Below are positions 14,406 through 48,248 of a stretch of DNA of 64,000 nucleotides, in pieces. Every line of letters begins with the position of its first letter. The first letter of the stretch is position 1. The notes beneath the pieces were generated by a model. It was given only the letters and a program-made list of their open reading frames with translations. It ran no database searches and was not told the DNA's origin. The translations under genes were made by a program, and so were the position numbers. The DNA lies in the NCBI GenBank assembly GCA_029557965.1, contig JAKQIM010000068.1, positions 1 to 64,000 of the forward strand, in the 5' to 3' direction. Source of the DNA: Chloroflexota bacterium. Its GTDB lineage: Bacteria > Chloroflexota > Anaerolineae > Anaerolineales > UBA4823.

Positions 14406-14642
14406 GTAATTATGTCATCCTTGAAACCACCACCCTGCTCCAGCATGGCTTCGGCATCGAAGCCGTAAGATCTTTCACTGGTCGATTGCACCAGCTTCGA
14501 AATCATGCGCCTGCTTAGGCTGGATACAGCTTTTACTTTTGACCCACATTTTCGCGAGCAGGGGTTTGAAGTTATTCCAGAAAACATCAGGCCATCCCCC
14601 CCCTGCCCCACCAGCCGCCAGATCATCCATAACACCCGATGA
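14402..14642 (+). pseudogene. Remnant of a PIN-domain (VapC-like) toxin
   Basis: An ATG overlapping the antitoxin stop opens a 38-codon reading frame (MSNYV, then ETTTLLQHGFGIEAVRSF), ending in TAG at 14516. The second half matches the middle of PIN toxins (ETxxLLQxRxGxxAVRxF). In another frame from 14517 comes RLDTAFTFDPHFREQGFEVI, a typical PIN C-terminus with the acidic Asp of the active site. The N-terminal catalytic Asp region and a middle stretch are missing and the frame is broken. The gene therefore appears dead by at least two deletions. Its last codons overlap the cyclase start. Confidence 0.75.
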
Positions 14643-17600
14643 CCGAAATTCAAGCTCTCATTGATGCGATTGCTGCGCTCGAATCTCAGCGCTCTTTATT
14701 GGGCGATGCGGTTGTGGATGCAGCGCTTGAACCGATGCGGCAAAAGCTGGCGCTGCTCCAGGCACAACCGGCCCAAAGCCAGCGCAAACAAGTCACCGTA
14801 CTTTTCGCCGAGTTTGCCGGCCTGACCGCACTTTGGGAGAAGTTGGCCGCCACAGAAGCGCACAATTCAAACGCCCTCTGGCAGCAAATCGATGCGGTCA
14901 TCACCACCCATGGTGGCACAGTCGACAAACACATCGGCGATACCGTAATGGCCCTGTGGGGTGTGCCCATTGCCCGCGAAGATGATCCCGAACGCGCCAT
15001 CAAGGCCGCCATCGCCATGCAATCCGCCTTATACACGTTCCGGCAGGAATTCAATGCCCCTTTGGTGCTGCGCATCGGCCTGAATACTGGCCCGGTGCTG
15101 TTGGGCGAGGTTGGCTCAACACGCGAGTTTACAGCCATGGGTAACACAGTGAACCTGGCATCACGGATGGAGCATGCGGCACCGCCGGATGGCATTTTGA
15201 TCACACACGAAACCTATCGTCATGTGGGCGGAATGTTCGATGTTCAAATCCAGCCGCCCCTGAATGTCAAAGGCCAGGCTGAACCGGTGCAAACCTACGT
15301 GGTGCAGAGCACCAGGGCGCGCACCTTTTGGGTAACCACGCGCGGGATAGAAGGTATCGAGACACGCATGGTGGGGCGGAATGCAGAGCTAAAACGCCTG
15401 CAAAACGCTTATTGCATCAGCGCCGCAGAAAGCAAACTGCAAATGGCAACGGTGGTGGCCGAAGCCGGCATGGGTAAAAGCCGGCTGATGCGCGAGTTTA
15501 ACGCCTGGAACGAAACTCGCCCAGAGCACAGCCTGGTTATCAAAGGACGCGCCAGCCAAGAAATGCAGGCTGCCCCATATGCCCTGCTGCGAGATGCTTT
15601 TGCCTTCTGCTTCCAGATCCACGATAGCGACCCGCCAGAAGCAGTGCGAGAAAAAATGGAAAACGGCGTAGGGTCTGTCCTGCAGCCATCTATGTCAGCC
15701 AACGGCAAAGCCACCTTACCCTTCCTGGCCCCTTGGACAGAAGATGATACCCCATTGCGCGCCCACACAATCGGCCGCTTGCTCGGTTTTGACCTGTGCG
15801 ATAGCCCTTACCTGAAAGGTATTCAGGAAGATGCACAGCAGATCCATGACCGCGCTATCCTGTACCTGGTTGACTATTTCAAAGCGCTGGCGGCGCGCCT
15901 CCCCATCGTGCTGCTGCTAGAAGATATCCACTGGGCCGATAACAGCTCGCTGGATGTTTTGGAACAGATGCTGCGGATGTTAACCCAGCACCGCCTGCTG
16001 ATCATCTGCAACACCCGGCCGACCTTGTTTGAGCGCCGCCCTGATTGGCCCAGCGGGCAGGCTTTTCACACGCGCATCGATCTGTTGCCTCTTTCGCAAT
16101 CCGAAAGCCAGGCATTGGTGGATGATATCTTGCAGAAGGTGGAGGCTGTGCCAGACACGCTGCGCCACCTGGTGGTCAGCAATGCCGCAGGCAACCCTTT
16201 TTATGTAGAAGAACTGCTCAAAATGCTCATCGAAGATGGCATTGTTGTGAAAGGGCCAGGCCGCTGGCAGGTCAACTCTGTGCGGCTGGCTTCGGTGCGC
16301 GTGCCGCCCACGCTGACCGCCGTGCTTCAGGCCCGCTTTGATATGCTGCCCCACAAAGAAAAGGTCACATTGCAGCGCGCATCTGTATTTGGGCGTACGT
16401 TTTGGGTAGAGGCAGTGAACTTTGTTGCCAAAGACCCCGGGCTTTCAGACGCCGCCCCGGCCCTGGCTGCGCTGAACGGGCGCGAGATGGTTTTTCAGTC
16501 AGCAACATCTACCTTTGCTGCCACCGACGAATATATTTTCAAGCATGCCCTGCTGCGCGACGCCACCTATGAGAGTGTGCTCAAGCGCGACCGGCGCGTC
16601 TATCATGCACGGGCAGCCGACTGGCTGCTGCGTCATTCAGCCGCCCGCGAGACCGAATTTGCAGGCCTGATTGCCGAGCACCTGGAGCGTTCTGCCCAGT
16701 TTGAACAAGCAGCGCAGTACCTGGCCCGCGCCGGCGCCAGCGCATTGAGAACCTATGCCTACCGCGAGGCAGCAGACTATTTCAGGCGGGCGTTGGCCCT
16801 GCTGCCTGCCGAGGGTGCTGAGCGGGTTCCTCTACTGGTGCAGTCTGGCGAAGCGCTGTGGTACCTGGGCGAATATGAACAGGCGCAAACGCTGTTGCAA
16901 GAAGGATTAGCGCTCGGAAAAAAGCATGGCCAGGATGGGCACCACGCAGATGCATTGATTCACCTGGCAGGAATTGCCCGCAAGCAGGGGAGATGGGACC
17001 AGGCCAGAGCCTATTTGACCGAGAGCCTGCAGATTGCCCGCCAGTTGGGCGAAAAGAATGAAATCGCCAATGCCTTGCATAACCTGGGCTGGCTAGAAAT
17101 CCGGCAAGGAGCCTATGCCGCCGCCAGCGCTCTGCTCGCCGAGGCCCAAGCGCTCTACCAGGCACTAAGAGATCGCCGCGGGCTGGCCGATGCGTTCAAT
17201 GGGTTGGGGACTGCTGCCCTCAACCTGGGTGAGTATGAAAAGACCACGGCCTTCTATCAGGAAAGCCTGGCCCTGTTCCATGAGGTGGGCGATCGACCAG
17301 GTGAGTCGGCGGCGCTGGTCAACCTGGGCGAGACGGCCCGGCGACAGGAGGACTACACCGCTGCCCGGCAGTATTACGAAGCTGCGCTCAAGATCGATCA
17401 CGAGATCGGCGATGAGCTGCTGGCAGCCATGACGCTGGGTAACCTGGGGCACACCGCCCTGGCCTGCAAGGATTATGCCGCCGCAGAAGGGTACTACCAC
17501 AAAGGGCTGCAAACAGCCGTAGCTATCAACGACATTCCCGATATCTTAGACATCCTGTCTGGATTGGCTGGCGCCCTGGCCCAAACGAACAGGATGGAGC

Positions 17601-17797
17601 AGGCGCTCATCATCCTGGGGCTGGTGTTGCACCATCCAGGGCTCGAAGACGAAAGCCGGCTCATTGCCGGGCAAGCCCTGTCTGCTCTGCAGGCTGTGTT
17701 AACGCCAGATGTAGTGCAGGCTGGGCTGGTGCGTGGGCAAGAGCAGCAGTTGGAAGCAGCGATCACACAGGTTATGGCAGAAGCCAAGTTTGATTAA
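14639..17797 (+). CDS. Class III adenylate/guanylate cyclase - AAA ATPase - TPR regulator
   Basis: 1052 residues. Class III cyclase domain (about 48-225): the first metal-binding position is Glu58 (VLFAEFAG) where Asp is usual; the second Asp101 (HIGDTVMALWG), Lys97, Asn172 and Arg176 (TVNLASR) are present. Activity is therefore possible but uncertain. An AAA_16/STAND-like ATPase follows, with Walker A AEAGMGKS (Lys280) and Walker B VLLLEDI (424-430). The C-terminus (about 690-1010) is TPR-like repeats. Such proteins are common signalling hubs in Chloroflexota and Actinobacteria. The ATG overlaps the TGA of the PIN remnant and no good ribosome binding site is seen, so translation may depend on the toxin frame. 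Confidence 0.85.
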   Translation: MTEIQALIDAIAALESQRSLLGDAVVDAALEPMRQKLALLQAQPAQSQRKQVTVLFAEFAGLTALWEKLAATEAHNSNALWQQIDAVITTHGGTVDKHIGDTVMALWGVPIAREDDPERAIKAAIAMQSALYTFRQEFNAPLVLRIGLNTGPVLLGEVGSTREFTAMGNTVNLASRMEHAAPPDGILITHETYRHVGGMFDVQIQPPLNVKGQAEPVQTYVVQSTRARTFWVTTRGIEGIETRMVGRNAELKRLQNAYCISAAESKLQMATVVAEAGMGKSRLMREFNAWNETRPEHSLVIKGRASQEMQAAPYALLRDAFAFCFQIHDSDPPEAVREKMENGVGSVLQPSMSANGKATLPFLAPWTEDDTPLRAHTIGRLLGFDLCDSPYLKGIQEDAQQIHDRAILYLVDYFKALAARLPIVLLLEDIHWADNSSLDVLEQMLRMLTQHRLLIICNTRPTLFERRPDWPSGQAFHTRIDLLPLSQSESQALVDDILQKVEAVPDTLRHLVVSNAAGNPFYVEELLKMLIEDGIVVKGPGRWQVNSVRLASVRVPPTLTAVLQARFDMLPHKEKVTLQRASVFGRTFWVEAVNFVAKDPGLSDAAPALAALNGREMVFQSATSTFAATDEYIFKHALLRDATYESVLKRDRRVYHARAADWLLRHSAARETEFAGLIAEHLERSAQFEQAAQYLARAGASALRTYAYREAADYFRRALALLPAEGAERVPLLVQSGEALWYLGEYEQAQTLLQEGLALGKKHGQDGHHADALIHLAGIARKQGRWDQARAYLTESLQIARQLGEKNEIANALHNLGWLEIRQGAYAAASALLAEAQALYQALRDRRGLADAFNGLGTAALNLGEYEKTTAFYQESLALFHEVGDRPGESAALVNLGETARRQEDYTAARQYYEAALKIDHEIGDELLAAMTLGNLGHTALACKDYAAAEGYYHKGLQTAVAINDIPDILDILSGLAGALAQTNRMEQALIILGLVLHHPGLEDESRLIAGQALSALQAVLTPDVVQAGLVRGQEQQLEAAITQVMAEAKFD

Positions 17798-20305: not shown

Positions 20306-23300
20306 ATGAATACCGCTCCTCAACCCGAGAATCTCCTGCGCGATCCCCTCACTGGCGTATATTCACGCGCATCTCTCAACGCGCGCCTCGAAGAAGAAAT
20401 TAAGCGCGCCCGCCGCTACGATTACCCCTTCTCAGTATTGCTGTTGGATATCGACCATTTCAAGAGCATCAACGACGCCTTCGGCCACGTCCGCGGCGAC
20501 CAGGTGCTGATCGAATTCGCCAACCGCATGGAAGGGATGGCACGCGCCATTGATATTCTCTTCCGCCTCGGTGGCGACGAATTCGTCTTCCTCCTGCCCA
20601 ATACCAACAATTCTCAGGCCCTCCTACTGGCGCAGCGCCTGTTGGCCGGCAGCCGCGCCGAACCCTTCCCTGGCGACCCTCCCCTCACCCTGTCTTTCAG
20701 CGCGGGCGTTGCCACCTACCCTTCTGACGGGAACACCGAAGACGAACTGTTTGAGATCGCCGACCAGCGCAGTTACCAGGCCAAGCGCAGCGGCCGCGGG
20801 CGCGTGGTAGGTGAAGAGCAGCCCATGCTTGCCACACCTCACCCCATCGACCCCGCCCGGATGATCGAGCGCGACCAGGCGGTCGAGACCCTTCAGCGCT
20901 TCCTCTCTGCGCTGCCCGAGCTGCGCCGCGGTGTGATGGTTGCCACCGGAGGCCCAGGCTCGGGCCGCACCCGCTTCTTGACCGAGGCCAGCCGCGCCGC
21001 CCGCATGCAGGGCTATGCTGTCCTCGAACTGAACGGCCGCCCGGCCCTGCACAACCGCATGTATGGCACCCTGGTCGAAGCCCATTCCAGTTGGCAGGGT
21101 GAACCCCTCCCATCTGCCCACGAACATCACTTTGTGGCCGCGCTGCAGCGCATGTTCATCCGCGAAGGCCACGTTGGCCTCTTAGTGATCTTAGATAACC
21201 TCCCTGATGTCGATAAAGCCACCCTCGACTTTGTGCGCAATCTCTTCATCTCGGCCGCCTTCCCACAGCTTGCCCTGCTCTACACCGTAAACAACCCCGC
21301 TGCCCACCGCGGCCTGCCCCAAGAAGCCCCCCTGCGCGCCAGTGTGGCCCTTGAGCCGGTCTCGCTCTCAGGGGTGCGCATCTGGCTGCGCCAGAGCCTG
21401 CATTGGGAATTCCCCAACGCCTTCGTCGAATGGTTCCACAAGCATACCCGCGGTTTGCCTGGCCTGGTGCGCACCGGCATGGATCTGCTGATCGAACACC
21501 AGATCATCAAATGGGTCGGCAGCGAGTGGATTTGCCACCCCGATTACGCCACCTTCCCCCTGGCTGAAGAATTAGCCCGCAAAGCTGCCGGTATACCACA
21601 CAACCTGCCCGCCAGCCTCTCCGATTTCGTCGGCCGCGCGGATGAGATCCATAAGCTTCGTCACATCTTGCAAGAGAACCGCCTGATCACCCTGGTGGGC
21701 CCTGGCGGCATGGGCAAGACCCGGCTGGGCATTCAGGTTGCCGCCGAAAGCCTGGAAGACTTCGCAGATGGGGTTTTCTTTGTACCGCTAGCCTCGCTCA
21801 GCTCGGTCGATTTTTTGGTCTCATCCATTGCCGACGCCTTGCGCTTTCCGCTGGCCGGATCAAAAGAGCCCCAAAATCAACTGCTGGCTTACCTGCGCGA
21901 CAAGGAACTCCTGCTGGTGTTAGACAGCTTCGACCATCTCTGCGAAGGGATTCCGCTGATCTACACCATCTTAGAGCGCGCCCCGCAGGTCAAGACCATG
22001 GTCACTGCCCGCGAGCACCTGGGCATCACTGGCGAAGCCAACTTCGAGCTGGGCGGCATGCCCTTGCCCGCCAGCGACAACGAAAACAACCTCGAAGACT
22101 CCAGCGTGGTCAGGCTCTTCCTGGCCAATGCCCGCCGGGCTGCCCCCGATTTCACATTGACCGATGCAGATAAGCCCTACGTGGCGGGCATCTGCCGCCT
22201 GGTAGAGGGCATGCCGTTGGGCATCGAATTTGCCGCCGCCTGGGTGCAAACCTTCTCTTGCCAAGAGATCTACGAGAAGATCCAGGGCAACCTGGCCTTC
22301 CTGGCATCAGACCGGCCCGACCTGCCCCAGCGTCACCGCAGCCTTTTGGCCGTATTCGACTCGTTCTGGAGCTTGCTGTCAGACGAAGAACAAAACATCA
22401 TGCGCTGGCTGTCCATCTTCCGCGGCGGCTTCAGTGCTTTTGCCGCCCAAAAAGTGGCCAAAGCCTCGCCTTTCTTCTTGGATGCCCTGGTAGCACACAC
22501 CTACCTGCGCCGCGTGGCCCAGGGGCGCTACGAAATCCACGAATTCCTGCGCCAATATGCCGCTGCAAAGCTTCAGCAAACGCCCGCCCTAGAAGCCGCC
22601 GGGCGCGATCGCCACTGCGCTTACTTTGCCCAATTCTTGCACCAGCGCGAGAGACGCCTGCGCAGCGACAAACGCGTCCTCGACGAGCTCAATGCTGAAC
22701 TTGAAAACTTGCGCAGTGCCTGGCGTTGGGCCATTGATCGCACCCGCCTGGCTGATATCAGGCTCATGCTTTCTGGCATGGCACGTTACTTTGATATCAC
22801 CGGCTTATCGCAAGAGGGCTTGCATGCCTTCCAGTTGGCAGCCGGCCACATTCACCAACCCATCCTTCGCAACCAGCTCAAGGTCAAAGAAGCCCTCTTT
22901 TTGAACAACCTGGCCATATTCGACCATGCCCAATGGGTTGCCAAAGAAGTCATCGACGTCGCTTTCCAATACAGCAACCAGATCCTGCAAGCCCAGGGCC
23001 AATTGCAGTTGGGCCGTGCCCTGCGCTCAATCGGCGCCTACGAAGTTGCCCACGGCCAGCTCGATGAGGCCTTGCAGATCGCCCGGCGCAAACATCGCTA
23101 TCCCCTGGCCGCCAACTTATACATTGAGATTGGCGACGTGGCCCTCACCCAGGGCAAACACCAAGAAGCATCCAATTATTACCAACAGGCCCTGCGCCTT
23201 TTCCGCGACCGCCTGAGCGACCGCCGCGGCGAGGGCAATGCCCTCAAAAACCTGGGGGTGGTCTCGAAAAATCTCGGCCTATACCAATCGGCCCGCCTTT

Positions 23301-24271
23301 ACTTTGAACAAGCCCTCGATATTTTCAGCGAGATCGGCGAACGCCGCAATGCCTGCTGGACCATGACCAACCTCGGCCTGGCCATGGAAGATCAGGGTAA
23401 TTTCTTTGCCGCGCGCCAATACTTTGAGCGCTCCTTGCCCATCTACCGCGAGGTCGGCGACCGGCCTGGCGAATGCTGGGGGCTGAACACCCTCGGCTAT
23501 TTCTTACATGCCCACGGCCGCCACAACGAAGCCTGGGATTGCTTTGCCCAGGCACTCCAAATCGCACGCGAGATCGGCGACCGCTGGGGAGAAAATATCA
23601 CCCTCAGCAACATGGGCAATATCATGTTAGCCATCGGCGACTATCCCAAGGCCCTGCAGCACGTAGAAGAAGCCCTGCACATCTCTCGCCAGATCGGCGA
23701 CCGCTGGGCCGAGATCTGGCGTACCTCAGAGCTTGGCATGGTCCACCACTACTTGGGTAATTACCAGGCTGCCTGCGACCTGAACGAACAGGCCCTGCGG
23801 ATGACCGAAGATACCAATGACCGGCCCATCCAGGGTTTCGCGCTCACCCGCCTGGGGTATGCGCGCCTTGCGCTTGGCCTGGTCGAAGAGGCGGTTGACA
23901 CCTTCGAACAGGCTGTGGCACTGCGCACAGATTTTGGCAGCCCTAACATGCTCATGGAATCGCTGGCGGGCCTGGCCAGCGCCCTGCTGGCGCACCAACA
24001 GCCGCAGGCGGCCCTCACCCACGTCCAGGTCATTCTCAACCATCTAGATCAGCATGGGCTGGATGGCACAGAAGCCCCGGTTCGCATTTACCAGGTCTGT
24101 TACCAGGTGCTGCTTGCCAACCAGGATGAACGCGCCCGCGATGTCCTCCATCGTGGCTACGTCTTGCTGCAAGATCGCGCCAACCAGATTTACGATGAAC
24201 GGATGCGCCGTATGTACCTCGAAAACGTGGTCTCGCACCGAGAAGTCATCCGCCGCTGGATGAACCCATAA
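20306..24271 (+). CDS. GGDEF diguanylate cyclase - dual ATPase (STAND/NB-ARC) - TPR fusion
   Basis: 1321 residues. N-terminal GGDEF domain (about 10-165) with intact GGDEF at 89-93, metal Asp in LLLDIDHFK and the inhibitory c-di-GMP site RxxD (Arg80-Asp83) five residues upstream, so it should make c-di-GMP. A first ATPase-like module has Walker A GGPGSGRT, with Arg221 where Lys is expected. A second NB-ARC-like module has a good Walker A GPGGMGKT (465-472) and Walker B LLLVLD (535-540). The last third (about 880-1230) is TPR-like repeats of 40 residues, visible as a 120-nt period. There is no C-terminal HTH as in MalT/LuxR-type STAND proteins. The architecture suggests signal-gated c-di-GMP synthesis. 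Confidence 0.88.
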   Translation: MNTAPQPENLLRDPLTGVYSRASLNARLEEEIKRARRYDYPFSVLLLDIDHFKSINDAFGHVRGDQVLIEFANRMEGMARAIDILFRLGGDEFVFLLPNTNNSQALLLAQRLLAGSRAEPFPGDPPLTLSFSAGVATYPSDGNTEDELFEIADQRSYQAKRSGRGRVVGEEQPMLATPHPIDPARMIERDQAVETLQRFLSALPELRRGVMVATGGPGSGRTRFLTEASRAARMQGYAVLELNGRPALHNRMYGTLVEAHSSWQGEPLPSAHEHHFVAALQRMFIREGHVGLLVILDNLPDVDKATLDFVRNLFISAAFPQLALLYTVNNPAAHRGLPQEAPLRASVALEPVSLSGVRIWLRQSLHWEFPNAFVEWFHKHTRGLPGLVRTGMDLLIEHQIIKWVGSEWICHPDYATFPLAEELARKAAGIPHNLPASLSDFVGRADEIHKLRHILQENRLITLVGPGGMGKTRLGIQVAAESLEDFADGVFFVPLASLSSVDFLVSSIADALRFPLAGSKEPQNQLLAYLRDKELLLVLDSFDHLCEGIPLIYTILERAPQVKTMVTAREHLGITGEANFELGGMPLPASDNENNLEDSSVVRLFLANARRAAPDFTLTDADKPYVAGICRLVEGMPLGIEFAAAWVQTFSCQEIYEKIQGNLAFLASDRPDLPQRHRSLLAVFDSFWSLLSDEEQNIMRWLSIFRGGFSAFAAQKVAKASPFFLDALVAHTYLRRVAQGRYEIHEFLRQYAAAKLQQTPALEAAGRDRHCAYFAQFLHQRERRLRSDKRVLDELNAELENLRSAWRWAIDRTRLADIRLMLSGMARYFDITGLSQEGLHAFQLAAGHIHQPILRNQLKVKEALFLNNLAIFDHAQWVAKEVIDVAFQYSNQILQAQGQLQLGRALRSIGAYEVAHGQLDEALQIARRKHRYPLAANLYIEIGDVALTQGKHQEASNYYQQALRLFRDRLSDRRGEGNALKNLGVVSKNLGLYQSARLYFEQALDIFSEIGERRNACWTMTNLGLAMEDQGNFFAARQYFERSLPIYREVGDRPGECWGLNTLGYFLHAHGRHNEAWDCFAQALQIAREIGDRWGENITLSNMGNIMLAIGDYPKALQHVEEALHISRQIGDRWAEIWRTSELGMVHHYLGNYQAACDLNEQALRMTEDTNDRPIQGFALTRLGYARLALGLVEEAVDTFEQAVALRTDFGSPNMLMESLAGLASALLAHQQPQAALTHVQVILNHLDQHGLDGTEAPVRIYQVCYQVLLANQDERARDVLHRGYVLLQDRANQIYDERMRRMYLENVVSHREVIRRWMNP
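23331..23705 (+). repeat. 120-nt periodic DNA repeat encoding 40-residue TPR units
   Basis: The 15-base motif GAGATCGGCGACCGC, with small changes, recurs at 23331, 23451, 23571 and 23691, exactly 120 nt apart. Each copy encodes (E/Q)-(I/V)-G-(D/E)-R at the same place in a 40-residue helix-pair unit. Forty rather than 34 residues is the LGN/kinesin-light-chain style of TPR. Confidence 0.8.
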
Positions 24272-24568: not shown

Positions 24569-24620
24569 CACAAATGATCAAAAAAGCGGTGCGCAGGCAC
24601 CGCTTTTTTGATCATTTGTG
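24569..24620. terminator. Bidirectional rho-independent terminator
   Basis: Perfect 24-bp inverted repeat (24569-24592 with 24597-24620), loop GCAG, core GCGGTGC/GCACCGC flanked by A and T runs. It serves the pspC-like gene and the convergent phosphatase gene, whose stop codon lies inside the stem. Confidence 0.92.
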
Positions 24621-25148
24621 AAGCGACCAGCCCAACACCATTTTTCGCTGGGCCGGGGTTTCAGGCGACTCTTGCCACGCGTCAACCGTATCTTTGCGCA
24701 GCCGTGCCAGGTGATCCAACGCATGCTGGCCCGATAGTCCAATCCCATTGCGCACCAGGTAACAGCCCACCACCATGCCAGTGCGGCCAATCCCACCTGC
24801 ACAATGCACATACACCCGGTGGCCCGCAGCCAACGCCACATCCAGCGCATCCAGGGTTTGGATCATCTCTTCCTCGGTCGGCACGCCAAAATCTCGAATC
24901 GGCTTATGGTGCCGGATGGCAGTGACCCCGCGCGCCAGAGCCTCTTCCATCAAGATGAACTCATACGGCTCCTTGCCCCCCTCACCTTCCTCGGTCAAAT
25001 CCACAAAAAACGTGATCCCCTGGTCCAGCAGCCAGCCCAGGCGCTGGCGGGTTTCTCCCTCATCCTTTGTCCCCGGATACTTGCCGGCCAGCAAACGCTT
25101 CGACAGCACCCAATAAGATTCGCGTGCCAAAAGATCAGAGGTTTTCAT
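24612..25148 (-). CDS. Dual-specificity/tyrosine protein phosphatase-like protein
   Basis: 178 residues. The phosphatase P-loop HCAGGIGRTG (HCx5R) is intact; the conserved general-acid region probably lies in HHKPIRDFGVP. The family removes phosphate from Tyr/Ser/Thr or from other phosphoesters; the substrate is unknown. ATG 25148 is chosen because TATAAT ends six bases before it, which implies a leaderless message; a longer frame adds 20 residues that would lie upstream of that promoter. Confidence 0.85.
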   Translation of the reverse strand: MKTSDLLARESYWVLSKRLLAGKYPGTKDEGETRQRLGWLLDQGITFFVDLTEEGEGGKEPYEFILMEEALARGVTAIRHHKPIRDFGVPTEEEMIQTLDALDVALAAGHRVYVHCAGGIGRTGMVVGCYLVRNGIGLSGQHALDHLARLRKDTVDAWQESPETPAQRKMVLGWSLHK

Positions 25149-25154
25149 GCTCTT

Positions 25155-25160
25155 ATTATA
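25155..25160 (-). promoter_or_regulatory. -10 box of a leaderless transcript (phosphatase)
   Basis: TATAAT on the minus strand, six bases before ATG 25148. Transcription would start at or next to the start codon. Confidence 0.55.
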
Positions 25161-25185
25161 TGATACTTCTGCAACCTGAATGATA

Positions 25186-28100
25186 TCAATTTGAACCCGG
25201 TGAAGCATTACAAGTCAAGTCCTCATCCACCGTGCGGCCAGTTTCTTCAAAGGCAGTACCGTTCCAGGTATAGGTATAGGTCGCGGTGACGCACGCCCCG
25301 CGGGCCGCATCATAGAACAAGGCCGTGGTTGTAATCGATCCCGTCTCACCCAAAGGCAGATCTCCCATGGCAGTGCCAGGCGAATCCAACACCTGCACCA
25401 TCTGCCCCTCTGTCCAGCGGTACACTTTGAAGCCCGCATCCTGCCCGCCCAACACATTGAAGGCCAGCAAATCTTTGCAGGCGTCCTCCTGCAGGCTAAA
25501 CAAGTACGGCCCCATCAAAAAGCTGGCCGGGCTCTCGGCAATCGAATAGATCCAGGCCTGATGATAGAAGCCGATCTCGTCCATGCTTTCCAGGGTAATG
25601 CCGTTGATGATCTCTGCGTCTGAACCTGAGCTGGGGATGGTTTGCACCCGCTCCACCGTACCGTCGCAGCCCAGGTCTTGTTCGGCCAACAAAACACGGT
25701 ACGAAGTAAGCGGCACAAGCAAAGTCTGCCCGGCATAGATCAAATCGCAACCGCCGGTCAAGCCGTTCACCTGGATGATCGTTTCAACCGAAACACCAAA
25801 ACGGCTGGCGATCAGCAAACAGGCATCCCCATCTTGCACCACATAAGGATACAGCGTTTCTGCCCCCAGGCCTGCAGATGGCAGATGTTCCATCCCCTGT
25901 GCAATCTGCACCAGGTCATCCCGCGTCAGCGCAAATGCCCCTAGCTCATCCCCCGCATCACCGGCCTGGACGAGGCGGTATTCGATGCCCACCAGCATGC
26001 TCGCTTGCTGCCAGGCCAGGTACTGCACTGGAGCATTCACGTCCCAGGGGTACCACTGGTATTCATCCGTCTGCATGCCTTCATCAATTGCCCAATCGCC
26101 GCGTACATACTCAGCCGCCAGGCCCTCGCCAATCCCCACCCGTTCGATGACCGCCCCTTCACCCACCAACCCGGCTGCGCTGCCATACGCCACCGGCCGT
26201 TCCGCAATCCACAACTCTGAGTAGGCCTCCGAGCCAGGCGGCCCGCTGAGACGGTAACCCAACACCGCCATTCCATCGTCTGTCATATAGGCACCTGCAA
26301 ACACGGCGTTTTCTGGCAAACGGCGCGGGGCCAGCAGCATCCCATTCAAAATACCACTCGCCTGGTACAACGTCAGCGGGTTGGCCGATCCGCTGCCCAC
26401 CGGCCCCAGCCGCCCTCCCGGCATAAAGATCGGCCGGTTGAACGTCTGCACAGAAGTTCCTGCGCCCATCGGCACAAAAACCCGGACGGCACCAGCCACC
26501 ATGGGGCTGCGCCACAAGGTCAACCCGCTGGGCAGGCCGGTCGCCAACCAGGCCCCATCGGCAGAAAATGCCAGGGCCCTCACCCCGCCTGGGTTGGCAT
26601 TGTACGGCATCACAACCCCCGCCTGGTGATCCAAGAGGTTCCACAGCCACAAGCCCTGCTCCAAAGTGCCCGAGGCCAGGTAAGCGCCATCTGGCGAAAA
26701 TACCAGGTCGCCCGCCCAATCCGCCAGGGTCAATGCCTGGTCAGCCGTCACCTGCAGGGACCCAAAACCCTTCCAATCCACCCGCCAGATCTGGATCACA
26801 CCATCTTGCGAGCGCGACGCCAGCAGCTCTCCATCCGGCGAGAAAGCCACCCCCACCACACCGGTTTCGTGCCCACCCAGGCGCGCCAGCACCATCCCCG
26901 AGGGGATCAACTGCAGCCATACCGTTCCATCCGCCGCCCCCACCGCCATCAAACCGCCCGCCGGTGACAGGGCAATCCCATTCACTGTGCCCGGCGCATA
27001 GGTCAGGGTCGCCACGCGGGTCATCACCCGGTCGTGATTGCGCCAGAGCCACACAGCCTCGCTCGTTGCCACTGCCAATTCATCCCCCTCAGGCATGAAC
27101 TGCACACTTATAATGCGCCCCGGATGCCCCTCGAGCGTATAGGTCCCCTGGCTGTCGGTCAGGTGCCAGGCGTACACAGACCCATTTGCCGCCCCTGCCG
27201 CCAGCAGTTGATTATCTGGAGAAAAGGTCAGGCTGGTGAAAGCCGACAGGGCCTCACTCTGCAAGGTGGTCTCATAATTCAGCGCATTCACATTCCAAAT
27301 GCGCACCTTGCCATCGCTGTAGGCGCCTGCGAGCAAACTTCCGTTTGGCGAGAAGGCCAGCGCGTTGGCCTGCTGTTGTGTCTCGCTAAACGAGTTCACC
27401 TCATCCCAGTTAAGCTGAGGCATACTGGGCAGCTCGGCAACCGCACGCCGCCAACTGCGCTGCCGGTCGTATAACACCAGCCGGCTTTCAGCCGCCCACC
27501 CCTCCATGCCATGATTCCAATATGAGATCCACCGGGCATCGTCTGATAAGACCGGGAACAGCAGCGTCGTAGATCCCCCAGGTTCCACCAGCCCGGTTGT
27601 GCCGCTTTGCCGGTCGTGCAGATAAAGCGAGCTGCAGCCTTCGACCCGGCAGTTTGTAACCACCTCAGCGGTCAAATTATCAGCCGAGGATAAGAACAGC
27701 ACATAACGACCATCTGCCGAAATCCGCAAACCGTAAAATGGATTACTGGAACCGCTGGCATAATCCGCCAGCCCGCCGCCCACCGCCCGGCTGATCATTT
27801 CGATCTCACCCGTCTGGCGGTCGCGCACAAACACATCGCTATAATTATTCGCGTCCCCCGGCACCAGGTTCGACGAAGACGAAGCAAAGGCCAGGTAACG
27901 ACCATCGGATGAAAGATCTGGAGAAAAAGCCCACCCATTACCAGGCTCACCCTCGGCAGTCTGGCTGCCAATCTCGTAAGAACCTGCCAGCCGGTCGAAA
28001 ACCACCACCTGCATGGTACCGCTCCCAATGCCCAGCGCTGCCCCCAAGCGGCTTTCTCCGGGCACGGCAAAGGCCAGCCATTGCCCATCTGCCGAAAGAC

Positions 28101-29778
28101 CCAAACGGCTAAAGCTAGAGATCAAACCATCCGCGGGCGGCACCCCCACCGGAACCCGGACCAGATTTTTCTCCTGCCGGTCGTACAAGTAGACGTCCAG
28201 GCAGTATATCGTCAGCCCTTCAGCCGTTTCACATTGTCCATCATCATCTGCCATCAGGTTGTTGGCAGATGACCAAAATGCCACCCAGCGCCCATCAGCC
28301 GAAATCGTGGGTGCAATGCTGAACCCATTTGCCGGGACATGATGGAACCCACCCGTGATCTGCGCCGTGGTTCCAGTTTGGCGGTCGTACACAAAAATAT
28401 CGGCACACATTTGCCCATCAGGCGTCAGGCAGGGCAGCCCCCCATCTGCCAAAGCCTTGCCCACGCTGCCGTAAGCCACCCAACGCCCATCCGATGACAG
28501 GCTGGGGGCCATGGCAATCCAATGTCCGAATTCCATATATCCGTCCGTAGCTGAATTCAAGAGCAGTGAGCTGTGCGTAGCGCGTTCGTAGAGCCAGGTT
28601 TCTACCATCACCGCGCCCGGTGCTTCATCAAAGCCAGCCGAAAAACTGGATCTGGTATACGCCAGCCAATTGCCATCCCCCGAGATGGCAGGCGTGATGA
28701 ACTGGTAAGCGTAGGTCGCATCGCCTTGCACCGCTTCTTGCCCACCAGCAATCGATTCTGGAACCGCTCCCATCAACGGTGTTGGGAGGACATCCGGCGC
28801 TTCGATTGCCACAGGGTTGAATTCGCCTGCCAGTGGGTTGGCCAACAGGAGGCTCGCCAACACCACCCCCACCACCACAACCAGGCCGCCAACCCAGGCC
28901 ACCTTGCGCAGTGAGAGGGGCATCATCCCGGCAGTTCCCTTCCGCCGCCCACCGGGCTGGTGGAGAAGGGTTTCAACGCCCTGGCGCAAGTTGTCCAACT
29001 GCCCGCCATCCAATGCAAGCACAGGCCAACGCCCTGCCAACTGCTGCCTCAGTGCGCCATCCAACGCCCGCAATTTTTGCAGGTAAGTTCCGCATGCCTG
29101 GCAGCCGGCCAGATGAAGTTCCAGTTTTTGGCTTTGTTCAAAGGCATCTTCTTTGTCGGGTTCATCGATGCAGGACTGGAGAGCGGGGAGGAGATGCGCA
29201 GCCGGCGGCCGCACCAGCAGTTGATGGCGCGCCGCACCCAGCCGCGCCTGGGCCTCTTGGAGAGAAATACGCAGCACATACGCCAGCTCGGTCAGCCTGA
29301 GCCCCTGGGCATAGTACAACAGAAGAGGCCAGCGCAGTTTATCAGGCAAGGCGTCTACGCTGGCCCAAGCATCTGCATCCGCGTGACAATCCCTTTGCAC
29401 GCCAGCAGCCCGCACCCGGGCCCAACGCCGCTGTTGCTGTGCCCGGCGAAACGCCAACCCCAACAGCCAGCTTTGCACGCGCTCTTCGCCCCTGAACTGA
29501 TCTACGTGCCGCACCGCATCAGCAAAAACGTTTTGCACAGCCAGCCCAATCTCATCATGCGAGGGCGGCGCCTCGGGGTCATCCAGCACCATCTGCACCA
29601 TACCACAAACCGGCGCGGCAAAACGACCCACCAAAGTCTCTAACAACGCAAGGTCACCCGGACGGCTGTTCTGCAGCAGATAAGCCAGTTCAAGCGCTTC
29701 TTCTTCATCCTTGGAATACACCGAGGGCAAGAAGTGCGCCGGGCCCTTGAAGGCTGAACGTTCGCCTAGCTTGGCCAT
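25186..29778 (-). CDS. Membrane-anchored ECF sigma/anti-sigma/beta-propeller/LysM fusion protein
   Basis: 1530 residues, one continuous frame. In order: sigma region 2-like (about 44-118; VFADAVRHVDQFRGEE and SWLLGLAFRRAQQQRR), sigma region 4-like helix-turn-helix (about 143-190; LPDKLRWPLLLYYAQGLRL, ELAYVLRISLQEAQARLGAAR), zinc-finger anti-sigma motif HX3CX2C (His222, Cys226, Cys229) and one transmembrane helix (about 290-313). Outside follow seven or so PD40/TolB-like repeats (SxDGRWVAY type, about 360-770) and about seven WD40 repeats (FSPDGxLLAS type, about 790-1120). LysM lies at 1312-1357, then a cysteine-containing domain of about 170 residues. A sigma factor, its inhibitor and a surface sensor appear joined in one polypeptide. 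The regulatory mechanism is unknown; the sigma part may instead be only a DNA-binding relic. Confidence 0.85.
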   Translation of the reverse strand: MAKLGERSAFKGPAHFLPSVYSKDEEEALELAYLLQNSRPGDLALLETLVGRFAAPVCGMVQMVLDDPEAPPSHDEIGLAVQNVFADAVRHVDQFRGEERVQSWLLGLAFRRAQQQRRWARVRAAGVQRDCHADADAWASVDALPDKLRWPLLLYYAQGLRLTELAYVLRISLQEAQARLGAARHQLLVRPPAAHLLPALQSCIDEPDKEDAFEQSQKLELHLAGCQACGTYLQKLRALDGALRQQLAGRWPVLALDGGQLDNLRQGVETLLHQPGGRRKGTAGMMPLSLRKVAWVGGLVVVVGVVLASLLLANPLAGEFNPVAIEAPDVLPTPLMGAVPESIAGGQEAVQGDATYAYQFITPAISGDGNWLAYTRSSFSAGFDEAPGAVMVETWLYERATHSSLLLNSATDGYMEFGHWIAMAPSLSSDGRWVAYGSVGKALADGGLPCLTPDGQMCADIFVYDRQTGTTAQITGGFHHVPANGFSIAPTISADGRWVAFWSSANNLMADDDGQCETAEGLTIYCLDVYLYDRQEKNLVRVPVGVPPADGLISSFSRLGLSADGQWLAFAVPGESRLGAALGIGSGTMQVVVFDRLAGSYEIGSQTAEGEPGNGWAFSPDLSSDGRYLAFASSSSNLVPGDANNYSDVFVRDRQTGEIEMISRAVGGGLADYASGSSNPFYGLRISADGRYVLFLSSADNLTAEVVTNCRVEGCSSLYLHDRQSGTTGLVEPGGSTTLLFPVLSDDARWISYWNHGMEGWAAESRLVLYDRQRSWRRAVAELPSMPQLNWDEVNSFSETQQQANALAFSPNGSLLAGAYSDGKVRIWNVNALNYETTLQSEALSAFTSLTFSPDNQLLAAGAANGSVYAWHLTDSQGTYTLEGHPGRIISVQFMPEGDELAVATSEAVWLWRNHDRVMTRVATLTYAPGTVNGIALSPAGGLMAVGAADGTVWLQLIPSGMVLARLGGHETGVVGVAFSPDGELLASRSQDGVIQIWRVDWKGFGSLQVTADQALTLADWAGDLVFSPDGAYLASGTLEQGLWLWNLLDHQAGVVMPYNANPGGVRALAFSADGAWLATGLPSGLTLWRSPMVAGAVRVFVPMGAGTSVQTFNRPIFMPGGRLGPVGSGSANPLTLYQASGILNGMLLAPRRLPENAVFAGAYMTDDGMAVLGYRLSGPPGSEAYSELWIAERPVAYGSAAGLVGEGAVIERVGIGEGLAAEYVRGDWAIDEGMQTDEYQWYPWDVNAPVQYLAWQQASMLVGIEYRLVQAGDAGDELGAFALTRDDLVQIAQGMEHLPSAGLGAETLYPYVVQDGDACLLIASRFGVSVETIIQVNGLTGGCDLIYAGQTLLVPLTSYRVLLAEQDLGCDGTVERVQTIPSSGSDAEIINGITLESMDEIGFYHQAWIYSIAESPASFLMGPYLFSLQEDACKDLLAFNVLGGQDAGFKVYRWTEGQMVQVLDSPGTAMGDLPLGETGSITTTALFYDAARGACVTATYTYTWNGTAFEETGRTVDEDLTCNASPGSN

Positions 29779-29802
29779 AAAGCGATTTTACACCCAATTG
29801 GG
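29779..29802 (-). promoter_or_regulatory. Leaderless-type promoter and palindrome for the sigma-fusion gene
   Basis: TAAAAT (complement of 29785-29790) lies six bases before ATG 29778. A perfect 10-bp palindrome CCCAATTGGG (29793-29802) lies directly upstream, between where -35 and -10 would be. That position suits an operator, perhaps for autoregulation. Confidence 0.45.
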
Positions 29803-29878
29803 CCGCACAAGATTACAGTTCCTTTTTCAAGCCCGGCCCCATTCTGCCTGGCTGATGGTCTATTTTAAAAATTGTGAT

Positions 29879-29884
29879 TATAAT
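29879..29884 (+). promoter_or_regulatory. -10 box of a leaderless transcript (HD-domain gene)
   Basis: TATAAT followed by AGGAT and then ATG 29890. Either the message is leaderless or AGGA acts as a very close ribosome binding site; the spacing favours leaderless. Confidence 0.55.
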
Positions 29885-29889
29885 AGGAT

Positions 29890-30798
29890 ATGCTCAAGCC
29901 GTTACAAATCCCCGACTTGATACAGCCCTATGCCCCAGCCTGCCCGGCCGGAGCCGAGGTTCTGCGCAAGATCGCCTTTGACCTAAACCTGAGGCCGCTC
30001 TCAGAAAACGTCTACGACATTCTGGTGCAGTTCTCTGGCGAGCCGCTGGTGGGGTATGCCCTGCTCTTGGCGGCTGAGCGGCATGCGGGGATAACCTACC
30101 AACACGCGGCCGGGGCCTTCCCCTATCTCTATCACCTTGTCGATGTGGCCTGGTGCCTGGCCAACGTCTTATCCGTCACCGATCCCTTCATCATCGTCTG
30201 CGGCCTCTGGCACGATATGCTCGAAGACTTGCTGATCACCGAAAGTGAAGTGCGGGCTTACTTGTCTCAAGTTCGCCCCCTGGCTGGCAAACCATACTCA
30301 CCAAATCTGGATGACGAGATCCTGGCCTGCCTGAAGGCCCTCATCCGGCCCGGCACTGGCAAAGAGGCCGCCATGGTTTATTATGGCGGCCTGGCAGCCG
30401 CCTCGCCAGCCGCGCGCACCATCAAGGCCGCCGATCTCATCTGTAACACCGCTGGTCTGAAATCCCTGCACCACCAATGGTACGGCATCGCACCCATTCC
30501 CCGCTCGCCTCGCATGCATGTGATTGCCAAGTACGTCACCGAAACCGACCGCTACCTCTTCCACCAACCCGCTTTTACCACCCTAGAAACCTACCCCAAA
30601 ATCCATAACACCCTGCTGGGCATCTTGCAAGACCTGCTCCAGTATATCTATCGAGAATACCCCCACCAACTGGGGATGCTCGACTCGGCTGCCCTGCAGA
30701 ATTACCAGACCCCCTTCCGCCCGGCGGCCAATCGCATTCTCAAATTATCGGTAATCTATCCCCAACTATTTAACGATAACCAGGAAAAAAACCCGTGA
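29890..30798 (+). CDS. HD-domain protein, RelA/SpoT hydrolase-like
   Basis: 302 residues, all-helical. The HD metal set is visible: His82 (LYHLVDVAWCL), His108-Asp109 (GLWHDMLED) and Asp182 (KAADLICN). The pattern H-x2-VA...WHDMLED...K-x-AD-x2-N closely follows the (p)ppGpp hydrolase domain of RelA/SpoT (HPxxVA, LLHDxxED, KxADRxxN). No synthetase domain is attached, so it resembles small alarmone hydrolases, but other phosphohydrolase substrates are possible. It overlaps the next gene by four bases (GTGA) and is divergent from the sigma-fusion gene. Confidence 0.7.
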   Translation: MLKPLQIPDLIQPYAPACPAGAEVLRKIAFDLNLRPLSENVYDILVQFSGEPLVGYALLLAAERHAGITYQHAAGAFPYLYHLVDVAWCLANVLSVTDPFIIVCGLWHDMLEDLLITESEVRAYLSQVRPLAGKPYSPNLDDEILACLKALIRPGTGKEAAMVYYGGLAAASPAARTIKAADLICNTAGLKSLHHQWYGIAPIPRSPRMHVIAKYVTETDRYLFHQPAFTTLETYPKIHNTLLGILQDLLQYIYREYPHQLGMLDSAALQNYQTPFRPAANRILKLSVIYPQLFNDNQEKNP

Positions 30799-32849
30799 CC
30801 CCTACAACCCCCAATTGGATCCAGGCTGCCCGCCAACTGCTTCTCTCGCGCCAGATTGACAACCTGGAAATTGATTCCCTTGTCCCCCAGGGTAAGATCA
30901 AATACCAGTTTTCAGCCCATGGGCACGAATTGGCCCAGGTGCTGCTGGCGCAGGCGCTCGATCACCCGCACGACGCCGCCACCGTCTATTACCGCTCCCG
31001 GCCCTTTGTGCTGGCCAGTGGATTATCGCCCACCGCCGCCCTGGCGGCGGGCATGGCCCGCGCCGCAGGCCCCACCCTGGGCCGCGATGTGGGCGTGATG
31101 TTCAACCTCCCCAGCCGCGGGGGCATCACCATCTTCCCCACCTCTGGCGACGTGGGTGCTCAATACACCCCCGCCGTCGGCTGGGCGCAGGCCATCCAAT
31201 ACCGCACCCAGGTGATGCGCCAGGCCGAGTGGCAAAACGCCATCGCCGTGGCCCTGGGCGGCGATGGCAGCGTGGCAGCCAATGGGTTTTGGGCCGCCCT
31301 GAATATCGTCACCACTCTCAAACTGCCTTACCTGTTCTTCATCGAAGATAACAGCTACGGCATCTCGGTCCCTTCTGCTTTTCAGGTTCCAGAGGGCAAC
31401 GTTGCCCAAAACCTGACTTGTTACGGCGGCCTGTGTATCCGAGATGGCAGCGGCAGCCAGCCCGACCAGGCCTGGCAAGCCATCTCGAGCGCGGTGGAAT
31501 ATGTTCGCAGCGGCGCCGGACCCTGCCTGCTGCGCCTGCGTGTACCACGCCTGCTGGGGCATACCTACGTGGATAACCAGGCCTACAAAAGCGCCCAACA
31601 GCGCGCTGAAGAAGCCGCCCGCGACCCCCTGGTGCACCTGAAGGATTACTTGGAGGCCGAAAAGATTTTCACGGCGGCCCAATGGCAGGCCCTGGAACAA
31701 GAGGTAGCACAAGAAATAGATGCTGCGCTACACGCTGCCGAAGAAACCCCCCAACCTGAGCCAGCCAGCGCCCTACACCACCGCTTCTTCGAAGGCGTCG
31801 CGCCTCACCAGGGCGGCCTGCGCCCTGAAGGCGCCAACCTGCCCCTCGGCCCCGATCTGCCTCAACCCTCTGGCCCGCGCATCAACCTGATCGATGCCGT
31901 CCGGCGCACTTTGGAAGTAGAAATGACCCACAACCCCCGCCTGCTGGTCTTCGGCGAAGACGTGGGCGTCAAAGGCGGTGTACACGGTGCCACGCACGAT
32001 ATGCAGCATCATTTTGGCCCCGAACGTGTTTTTGATACATCATTAAATGAAGACGGAATCATTGGGCGTTCGATCGGCATGGCCCTTGCCGGCCTGCTGC
32101 CCGTCCCCGAGATCCAATTCCGTAAATACGCCGACCCCGCCCACGAGCAGATCAACGACCTGGGATTCCTCCGCTGGCGCACCGCCAACCACTTCGCCGC
32201 GCCGGTCATCGTGCGCATCCCGGTTGGATTCAGCAAGAAGACCGGCGACCCCTGGCACAGCTTCAGTGCCGAGGCTGTCTATGCGCATACCCTGGGTTGG
32301 CGCATTGCCTTCCCCAGCAACGCAGAAGACGCTGTCGGCCTGCTGCGCACCGCCCTGCGCGGTGATGATCCCACCTTCTTCTTCGAGCATCGTGCCCTCC
32401 TGGATACCCCCGAAGGCCGCCGCCCCTACCCCGGGGATGCCTACTGCCTGCCGTTTGGCCGGGCTGCCCGCCTCTTAGAAGGGCGCGCCCTCACCATCGT
32501 CACCTGGGGGGCCATGGTTGGCCGCTGCCTGGAGGCCGCCCAGAATTTCCCCGGGCAGGTCGATCTGTTTGACCTGCGCACCATCATCCCCTGGGACCAA
32601 GAGGCCGTGCTAGAAAGTGTCCACCACACCGGCAAAGCCCTGATCGTGCACGAAGATACCCTTACTTCGGGCTTCGGCGCCGAGATCAGCGCCATCATCG
32701 CCGAACAGGCCTTCAACCACCTGGATGCGCCCATCGCCCGCCTGGCAACCCCAGATGTCCCCATCCCCTATAATATCCCCATGATGGATGCCGTCTTGCC
32801 CACCGCCGCCCGCATCCAAGAAAGAATACAAACCCTGCTCGCCTATTGA
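30795..32849 (+). CDS. Fused alpha/beta E1 of 2-oxoacid (branched-chain type) dehydrogenase
   Basis: 684 residues, thiamine-diphosphate-dependent E1 that decarboxylates a 2-oxoacid and passes the acyl group to lipoyl-E2. The alpha half (about 1-320) carries the TPP motif GGDGSVAANGFWAALN with Asp157. The beta half (about 360-684) starts INLIDAVRRTLEVEM and has FGEDVGVKGGVHGAT, the usual E1-beta metal/TPP region. Separate alpha and beta genes are the common form; fusions are known in several lineages. GTG start within the upstream stop. No E2 or E3 gene lies nearby, so these must be elsewhere. Pyruvate or branched-chain oxoacids are both possible. Confidence 0.87.
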   Translation: MTPTTPNWIQAARQLLLSRQIDNLEIDSLVPQGKIKYQFSAHGHELAQVLLAQALDHPHDAATVYYRSRPFVLASGLSPTAALAAGMARAAGPTLGRDVGVMFNLPSRGGITIFPTSGDVGAQYTPAVGWAQAIQYRTQVMRQAEWQNAIAVALGGDGSVAANGFWAALNIVTTLKLPYLFFIEDNSYGISVPSAFQVPEGNVAQNLTCYGGLCIRDGSGSQPDQAWQAISSAVEYVRSGAGPCLLRLRVPRLLGHTYVDNQAYKSAQQRAEEAARDPLVHLKDYLEAEKIFTAAQWQALEQEVAQEIDAALHAAEETPQPEPASALHHRFFEGVAPHQGGLRPEGANLPLGPDLPQPSGPRINLIDAVRRTLEVEMTHNPRLLVFGEDVGVKGGVHGATHDMQHHFGPERVFDTSLNEDGIIGRSIGMALAGLLPVPEIQFRKYADPAHEQINDLGFLRWRTANHFAAPVIVRIPVGFSKKTGDPWHSFSAEAVYAHTLGWRIAFPSNAEDAVGLLRTALRGDDPTFFFEHRALLDTPEGRRPYPGDAYCLPFGRAARLLEGRALTIVTWGAMVGRCLEAAQNFPGQVDLFDLRTIIPWDQEAVLESVHHTGKALIVHEDTLTSGFGAEISAIIAEQAFNHLDAPIARLATPDVPIPYNIPMMDAVLPTAARIQERIQTLLAY

Positions 32850-46821: not shown

Positions 46822-48222
46822 TTATGTTACCAGCGTGCCGCTCCAGGGCGGCAGGGTCAGTTCAAAACAACCCTGGCTGACCACGTATTCATTCCCCGCT
46901 CGCAGCAGGTCGCGCAGCACAACCCCATCCTGCCAACCTGCCGGCTGCGCAGTAACGCAGTACCGGCGTTCATCAGGGGCGGCGTTCAACACCATCGCCA
47001 CGTTCCCGTCTGCATGGGTGCGGACAAAAGCATAACACCCACATTCTACATCCATGCACAAGCGTTCAAAGCCTCCCCGCCTGAGGGCTGTGAACTGCTT
47101 GCGCAAGGCGATCAATGTCTTGACCCAATCACGCAGTTCGGTATTCCAGTACTTAGGGTCCCACAAGAAGGCCCCTCGGCACTCTGGGTCTTTCCCACCG
47201 GTCAGGCCAATTTCGTCGCCATAATAGACTGCCGGCGCACCGGGGTAAGCAAACTGGAACAAAAAAGCCAGCTTGGCCTTTTCCACGCTCCCCTCCACCT
47301 TAGTCAACAGGCGCTCAGTATCATGCGACCCCACAGGAACATACATCGCATACGCATTCTCACGAGGGTAAAAAGACAACAGGCTTTCCACTTTCTCGGC
47401 AAAGTGCGGGATATCCAGCGTGCCCGCAAACAACAGGCGCAGCAGGGCATCGCGCACCGGGTAATGCATCAAACCGTCAAAATGTGCATCCCCCACCCAA
47501 CGCGTATCCGGATTCCAGATCTCACCCAAGATGTAAGCATCTGGATTGGCCGATTTGACAACCTGGCGAAACTCCGCCCAAAAACTGTCATCATCGATCT
47601 CATTCGGCACGTCCAGTCGCCAGCCATCTGTGCCCTGTTCGACCCAATACCGCGCCACATCCAACAAATAACGCCGCACAGCCGGGGTTGCGGTGTTGAA
47701 CTTCGGCAGGCCTTTCATCCCCCACCACCCCAGGTAATCGCGGGCATCTCCATACGAGTACGCGTCCACGGGAAAATTGTGAACGTGAAACCAGCTCAGA
47801 TAAGGCGAATGCTCTTGGTTTTCGAGGATATCGTTGAAAGCAAAGAAACCGCGCCCGCAGTGATTGAAGACCCCATCCAAGATCACCCGTACATCGTTGC
47901 GATGGGCCAGGTCCAAAAAGGCCCTGAAATCTTCCATTGTCCCCAGGCGCGGATCGATTCTAAAATAGTCGGTGGTGTGATAGCGGTGGTTCGATGCCGA
48001 TTGGAAAATGGGGTTCAAGTACAGCGCATTGACCCCCAGGTCCAGCAAATAATCAAAATGCTGCATGATGCCGCGCAGGTCACCGCCCTGGAAGTGCCAC
48101 ACGGTTGGCGGCGTGCCCCAAGGCTGAACGTTCGGCGGGTCGATACTCGCATCACCGTTCGCAAAACGGTCAGGGAAGATTTGATAAAAAATTGCGTCTT
48201 GCACCCAATCAGGAACAGGCAT
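46822..48222 (-). CDS. GH13 alpha-glucan hydrolase, cytoplasmic (neopullulanase/maltodextrinase-like)
   Basis: 466 residues. All four GH13 regions are present: DGVFNHCG; GWRLDVPNEI with nucleophile Asp204; ILGEIWN with acid/base Glu234; VGSHDTERL with Asp301. The HCG after VFN is typical of neopullulanases and cyclomaltodextrinases. There is no signal peptide, so it should act on imported maltodextrins. ATG 48222 is chosen because GAGGAG is four bases upstream; a GTG at 48234 overlaps that site. It follows the binding-protein gene by 26 bases. Confidence 0.88.
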   Translation of the reverse strand: MPVPDWVQDAIFYQIFPDRFANGDASIDPPNVQPWGTPPTVWHFQGGDLRGIMQHFDYLLDLGVNALYLNPIFQSASNHRYHTTDYFRIDPRLGTMEDFRAFLDLAHRNDVRVILDGVFNHCGRGFFAFNDILENQEHSPYLSWFHVHNFPVDAYSYGDARDYLGWWGMKGLPKFNTATPAVRRYLLDVARYWVEQGTDGWRLDVPNEIDDDSFWAEFRQVVKSANPDAYILGEIWNPDTRWVGDAHFDGLMHYPVRDALLRLLFAGTLDIPHFAEKVESLLSFYPRENAYAMYVPVGSHDTERLLTKVEGSVEKAKLAFLFQFAYPGAPAVYYGDEIGLTGGKDPECRGAFLWDPKYWNTELRDWVKTLIALRKQFTALRRGGFERLCMDVECGCYAFVRTHADGNVAMVLNAAPDERRYCVTAQPAGWQDGVVLRDLLRAGNEYVVSQGCFELTLPPWSGTLVT

Positions 48223-48248
48223 CAGGCTCCTCACAATAGCACCCCCAC

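Follow-up and report, generated by a model that had tools for sequence, protein, structure and literature searches.

An ECF sigma-like domain, a zinc anti-sigma domain and a predicted LysM/propeller sensor in one polypeptide of an Anaerolineales bacterium

In the analysed window, i.e. the whole stretch of DNA of 64,000 nucleotides to which all positions below refer, one ORF encodes a sigma-like domain, a zinc anti-sigma (ZAS) domain, a transmembrane (TM) helix, PD40 and WD40 repeats, a LysM domain and a C-terminal tail in a single chain. Fused proteins number at least 23 with this one included and come from 16 genomes, of which 15 belong to the family of the window and one, G029, to another family of the same order; this set appears lineage-restricted. 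By sequence, every fused sigma domain is degenerate; a comparison of the window protein and 22 relatives suggests a switch part whose shape was retained while its promoter-reading surfaces were lost. This part probably works as a decoy or tethered module, not as a normal switch.

The fused ORF (25186..29778, minus strand) starts with ATG at 29778, ends with TAA at 25186 and comprises 1530 codons; the uninterrupted frame claimed in the first-pass annotation was found intact. All features of the protein given below are on the minus strand. The single TM helix described earlier (290-313) was recovered at residues about 288-320 (28819..28917) by hydropathy, with basic residues before and acidic residues after it. 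Since the flanks are charged in this way, the sigma-like part is predicted inside and the propellers outside. Structure prediction for residues 1-330 from the single sequence also gave a helix at 290-313; the predicted structure was poor (pLDDT 45, pTM 0.25), hence, the helix order alone was used. The predicted exported part consists of PD40-type propeller repeats (residues about 350-780, 27439..28731; PF07676, E = 1.8e-15, 56.9 bits), WD40 repeats (residues about 790-1090, 26509..27411; PF00400, E = 2.8e-33, 113.4 bits), a linker without Pfam family, which is partly conserved in the G029 homologues (residues 1091-1311, 25846..26508), a LysM domain (residues 1312-1356, 25711..25845; PF01476, E = 1.4e-9, 38.2 bits) and a cysteine-containing tail conserved in G029 contig 174 (residues 1357-1530, 25186..25710). 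The three Pfam families were above cut-off, and the PD40, WD40, LysM and cysteine-tail assignments made at first pass hold, as does the proposal of an exported sensor with a LysM of the glycan/peptidoglycan type. An ORF for a DSP/PTPase-type phosphatase lies downstream on the same strand (24612..25208) and shares 23 bp with the end of the fused ORF when its first ATG is used; an alternative ATG is at 25149.

An assembly error or a chance ORF was ruled out by homologues of the same architecture in G029. The paralogue on contig 368 comprises sigma-like domain, TM helix, PD40 and WD40 and is 28% identical to the window protein over residues 332-1267; the paralogue on contig 174 comprises WD40, LysM and tail to the same end, with 29% identity over 807-1523. 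Jointly, the two span the whole layout of the window protein, sigma-like domain and tail included. As these parts are shared, the architecture is no assembly accident. The earlier proposal that one chain unites sigma, anti-sigma and membrane sensor is supported.

The sigma region 2-like domain comprises residues 24-125 (29404..29709) and the sigma region 4-like domain residues 134-190 (29209..29379). NCBIfam SigK matched residues 24-138 (E = 6.7e-7), E. coli sigmaE (PDB 1or7) could be aligned with E = 1.3e-4, and an HMM of 13 separate paired sigma factors from relatives matched both domains with 71 bits (E = 1e-21). The sigma2 and sigma4 signatures noted at first pass thus represent real homology over both domains, but it is weak: no sigma model of Pfam or NCBIfam was matched by the window protein at its curated cut-off, Sigma70_r4_2 (Pfam; also supported by alignment) reached 18.5 of the 25.7 bits needed (E = 0.0015), and sigma2 was not matched in Pfam. 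In region 2, the region 2.2 Gln, FRGE and W104 are kept, and the position of sigmaE N80 (numbering taken from the 1or7 alignment) is occupied by Arg. Parts of region 2.3 and two Arg of helix 4 are also kept. The recognition helix reads QEAQARLGAARHQLL in the window protein and GTVHSRLxxARxxL in the separate sigma factors, so that GTVHSRL in the -35 helix stands against QEAQARL, with T and S changed to E and A. The Asn aligned with sigmaE N80 and the other conserved residues are those which we take to have roles in contact with core and with the -10 and -35 elements. Judged by the alignment, the window protein would, with the exception of the region 2.2 Gln, lack the residues for core and -10/-35 contact of a functional ECF sigma factor. 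It retains more conserved sites than most fused proteins, and it could still be a sigma factor with altered specificity, because the full HHCC set of zinc ligands, the region 2.2 Gln and parts of region 2.3 are kept.

With the HMM of the 13 paired sigma factors, the pairs scored 165-256 bits (jackknife), standalone ECFs 122-261 bits and the 23 fused proteins 14-98 bits. The Asn at the sigmaE N80 position was present in 13/13 paired sigma factors and in 1/23 fused proteins, and the region 2.2 Gln was kept in the window protein and about 17% of the fused proteins. Similarity in the conserved columns of the fused forms was 0.77 for hydrophobic and 0.43 for polar positions (p = 5e-5); since hydrophobic columns were retained and polar ones were not, the fold appears to be kept and the functional surface lost. 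One fused relative, L156, passed the Pfam sigma2 cut-off, and in L061 the PhyR_sigma-like model (PF22233) was just under cut-off (E = 8e-6). A sigma-like domain was retained in 23/23 fused proteins. For two close pairs of relatives, both outside the window's own lineage, dN/dS of this domain was 0.10 (L056/L060a) and 0.06 (L059/L060b), which are rough values as dS was high; they argue against a decaying relic in the lineages of those two pairs. The first-pass annotation had taken loss of the core- and -10-binding residues in all homologues as the mark of a mere structural relic. Such a loss was largely found, but for the relatives the relic is contradicted by these dN/dS values.

To characterize the unfused state, 81 relatives were searched with residues 1-330 and the loci were then read. 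Many relatives contain sigma genes of about 185-217 aa, each directly followed by an anti-sigma gene. The separate anti-sigma factors open with 'M-x-L-T/S-H-x-x-A'; HxxxCxxC, LxxRWP and a TM helix follow in this order, and the exported part differs from protein to protein. In the own genome, contig 46 encodes a canonical pair, with the anti-sigma domain at 48167-48550, and contigs 2, 8 and 39 encode others that are sigma/anti-sigma-like. Two genes for sigma and ZAS anti-sigma factor are the usual state. ASDI-linked ECFs are abundant in Chloroflexi (72%; PMC7406223). The exported part of the separate anti-sigma factor at L064 (1973-4786) resembles, by eye, two tandem solute-binding-protein domains. 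A separate sigma factor with a membrane protein partner is encoded at L057 (1995-4871), where the anti-sigma-like protein is without zinc motif and keeps LxxRWP before the TM helix. Stand-alone sigma-like ORFs of 182 aa, scoring about 50 bits, were seen at L199 (1077-1625) and L201 (677-1225); these are perhaps degenerate and unfused.

The zinc anti-sigma domain of the window protein (residues 191-285, 28924..29208) was delimited by its sequence and by alignment with separate anti-sigma factors; Pfam zf-HC2 was below cut-off (13.5 vs 22.2 bits, E = 0.081). The HX3CX2C motif reported at first pass (His222, Cys226, Cys229) is present and more complete than described, the ligands being H195-x26-H222-x3-C226-x2-C229. 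H195, which had been missed, aligns with the conserved His in the opening of the separate anti-sigma genes. With Hx3Cx2C, an upstream His and a following membrane helix predicted as N-in, the domain is a putative class I zinc anti-sigma factor (ZAS/ASDI). Its juxtamembrane LAGRWP (29023..29040) corresponds to the LxxRWP common to fused relatives and separate anti-sigma factors. HxxxCxxC was kept only by the window protein and L162 among the fused proteins; most fused relatives are without the zinc motif, and their anti-sigma helical bundle is much reduced. The LxxRWP/anti-sigma helix segment is conserved (dN/dS 0.03-0.17).

The motif TGAAG-N17-C[GA]TCTAAT, 30 bases long each time, was found upstream of 8/14 paired sigma genes, e.g. 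at G000:C46:47457-47485, L055, L058 and L064. In 7/8 cases its end was 3-9 bases ahead of the annotated start codon, and at the contig 46 gene it lay 58 bases upstream. This position close to the sigma start codon suggests autoregulation, possibly from a leaderless transcript. Allowing a spacer of 14-17 bases, the own genome contained a single match, located at the contig 46 sigma gene. The motif was found upstream of 0/23 fused genes (Fisher p = 8e-5 vs the pairs; the genes are not phylogenetically independent), and the intergenic region upstream of the window ORF (29779..29889, minus strand) is without it; CGTCTAAT is absent from the window. Generic GAA[C/G]-N-[C/G]GTC sites were present upstream of 2/23 fused genes vs 2.7 in shuffled sequences and of 8/14 paired genes vs 1.5. 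Together with the loss of the N80 Asn and the rarity of the region 2.2 Gln, the absence of the autoregulatory motif makes the working sigma domain assumed at first pass doubtful.

The extent of the family was determined with A2, a profile built on the stretch from sigma4 to TM helix in fused proteins, which recovered further single frames. A2 was also run on 248 other genomes sampled from the class and had no match at E ≤ 1e-14 among the up to 14 candidates scored per genome, a number at which weak fused members could be missed. A contig scan with residues 1-331 yielded no relative, ordinary LysM proteins dominated a search with LysM and tail, and a mixed sigma/anti-sigma profile searched over the class returned mostly ordinary ECF sigma factors and was left out of the counts. 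Beyond the window protein, LysM occurs in seven fused proteins (L056, L060a, L061, L155, L156, L158b, L162) and on G029 contig 174, and a weak RseB/MucB-like match (0.01-0.05) was obtained for L059, L157, L160 and L162. A single origin of the fused forms was not rejected (p-AU 0.43); as the branches are long, we make no claim on the number of fusions. Named relatives of one neighbouring gene were mostly from Anaerolineales.

At nine loci in nine genomes of the family (L159, L171-L174, L179-L182), the fused genes lie near genes for pyruvate-dehydrogenase-type E1 alpha/beta, and so does the separate pair of the control locus L189. The window encodes E1 dehydrogenase alpha and beta in one ORF (30795-32849, plus strand), which shares 55-77% identity with genes from MAGs of Anaerolineales, Ignavibacteria and Kapaibacterium. 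Orthology between this ORF and the PDH E1 genes near other fused genes was ruled out (25-38% identity), and no fused gene was found near its orthologues at 52 other loci; the link of the window E1 gene to the fused gene is probably incidental. Acyl-CoA dehydrogenase genes lie near the fused genes of loci L170 and L176 and of G029 contig 174. Two large regulators are encoded on the plus strand of the window, one with guanylate-cyclase, AAA and TPR parts (14639-17797, 1052 aa) and one with GGDEF, AAA/NACHT-like and TPR parts (20306-24271, 1321 aa).

The first-pass annotation had put the protein forward as a candidate for an undescribed system. This was not supported, because fusions of this kind have been published. 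ECF48, ECF52 and ECF53 combine ECF sigma factor, zinc finger and TM helix (PMC8999054), and SCO4117 (ECF52) of Streptomyces coelicolor has a carbohydrate-binding domain as well (PMC5826349, PMC8999054). By architecture, the window protein resembles ECF52 in joining sigma, zinc finger, TM helix and exported part in one chain, with LysM where ECF52 has the carbohydrate-binding module, and with added propellers; the three known groups, however, are actinobacterial with a sigma factor acting on transcription, whereas the window protein is from Anaerolineales and its sigma domain appears degenerate. IutY of Pseudomonas putida (ECF243) likewise carries sigma and membrane anti-sigma factor in one polypeptide and is comparable by description, but it serves cell-surface siderophore signalling, for which cleavage by Prc/RseP is proven (PMC5411451). 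ECF sigma factors with WD40 are known from Planctomycetes (PMC8567305); compared by description, WD40 is the common feature, and ZAS, LysM and degeneracy are features of the window protein. Class I anti-sigma factors such as RsiW have the same Hx3Cx2C with upstream His, TM helix and exported sensor (PMC7406223), but are normally separate genes, unlike the window's, which is joined to the sigma ORF. In the literature on Anaerolineae, ECF and anti-sigma factors, no description of this fused family was found. What appears new in the literature searched is a lineage-restricted family with LysM/propeller sensors and a degenerate sigma domain under selection in relatives.

Tentatively, we put first a fusion after which the sigma part was repurposed, perhaps as a membrane-tethered sigma mimic following the logic of PhyR, or as a like module. 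An ECF sigma gene and the downstream gene of its membrane ZAS anti-sigma factor would have become one ORF, and the sigma part would have been repurposed within the lineage after this fusion. The mimic is preferred because an ECF fold with lost promoter and core surfaces matches the description of PhyR, whose sigma-like domain has a correct ECF fold with degenerate promoter/core regions and titrates an anti-sigma factor (PMC8103513). The likeness to this regulator of the alphaproteobacterial general stress response is one of sequence; unlike the window protein, which is fused to anti-sigma domain, TM helix and exported sensor, PhyR is cytoplasmic with a receiver domain, and the Pfam scan of the window protein gave no receiver domain. 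The sigma-like domain would no longer start transcription; its own anti-sigma helices may keep it bound at the membrane. If the outer LysM/propeller part received a signal, the exposure of the domain could change, and the exposed domain could bind the anti-sigma domains of sister pairs and free their sigma factors. In its full form, a membrane-anchored family in which a former ECF sigma factor captures sister anti-sigma factors on LysM/propeller engagement and without phosphorylation, this proposal is unlikely. Binding partner, signal and any cleavage of the fused protein are inferred.

The main rival, rather doubtful too, is a working one-chain ECF sigma factor of the ECF52/IutY type, which would be released by regulated intramembrane proteolysis (site-1 and site-2) once the LysM/propeller sensor receives a signal; the anti-sigma part would be degraded, and sigma would then act at divergent promoters of its own. 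In architecture, the window protein matches ECF52 and IutY (PMC5826349, PMC5411451), two M50 site-2-protease-type genes above cut-off are present in the own genome, and the residues kept in region 2 and helix 4 of the window protein as well as the sigma2 match of L156 would fit a released sigma factor; M50 genes, however, were present in 14/14 control genomes. The lost N80 Asn, the changed -35 helix, the degeneracy of all fused relatives and the missing autoregulatory motif, with generic sites at the shuffled level, speak against it. Alternatively, the sigma-like domain and its own anti-sigma helices could form a stable cytoplasmic module that passes a conformational signal to a partner. The kept fold with lost functional surface and the conserved LxxRWP segment would suit such an intramolecular lock; it is improbable and, if complete, not general, because the zinc motif is missing from most fused relatives, along with much of the helical bundle. 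That the fusion left behind a sigma domain without function, as degenerate scores and long branches might indicate, is very improbable given purifying selection in two close pairs and the presence of the domain in all fused proteins.

Pairs and fused proteins form a natural series from a sigma/anti-sigma operon to one receptor, in which the later fate of a sigma domain can be followed. The pairs carry an autoregulatory motif, whereas the fused forms are without promoter-reading residues, motif and, usually, zinc site, with the domain under purifying selection in the measured relatives. This series therefore makes membrane sigma mimicry directly testable.
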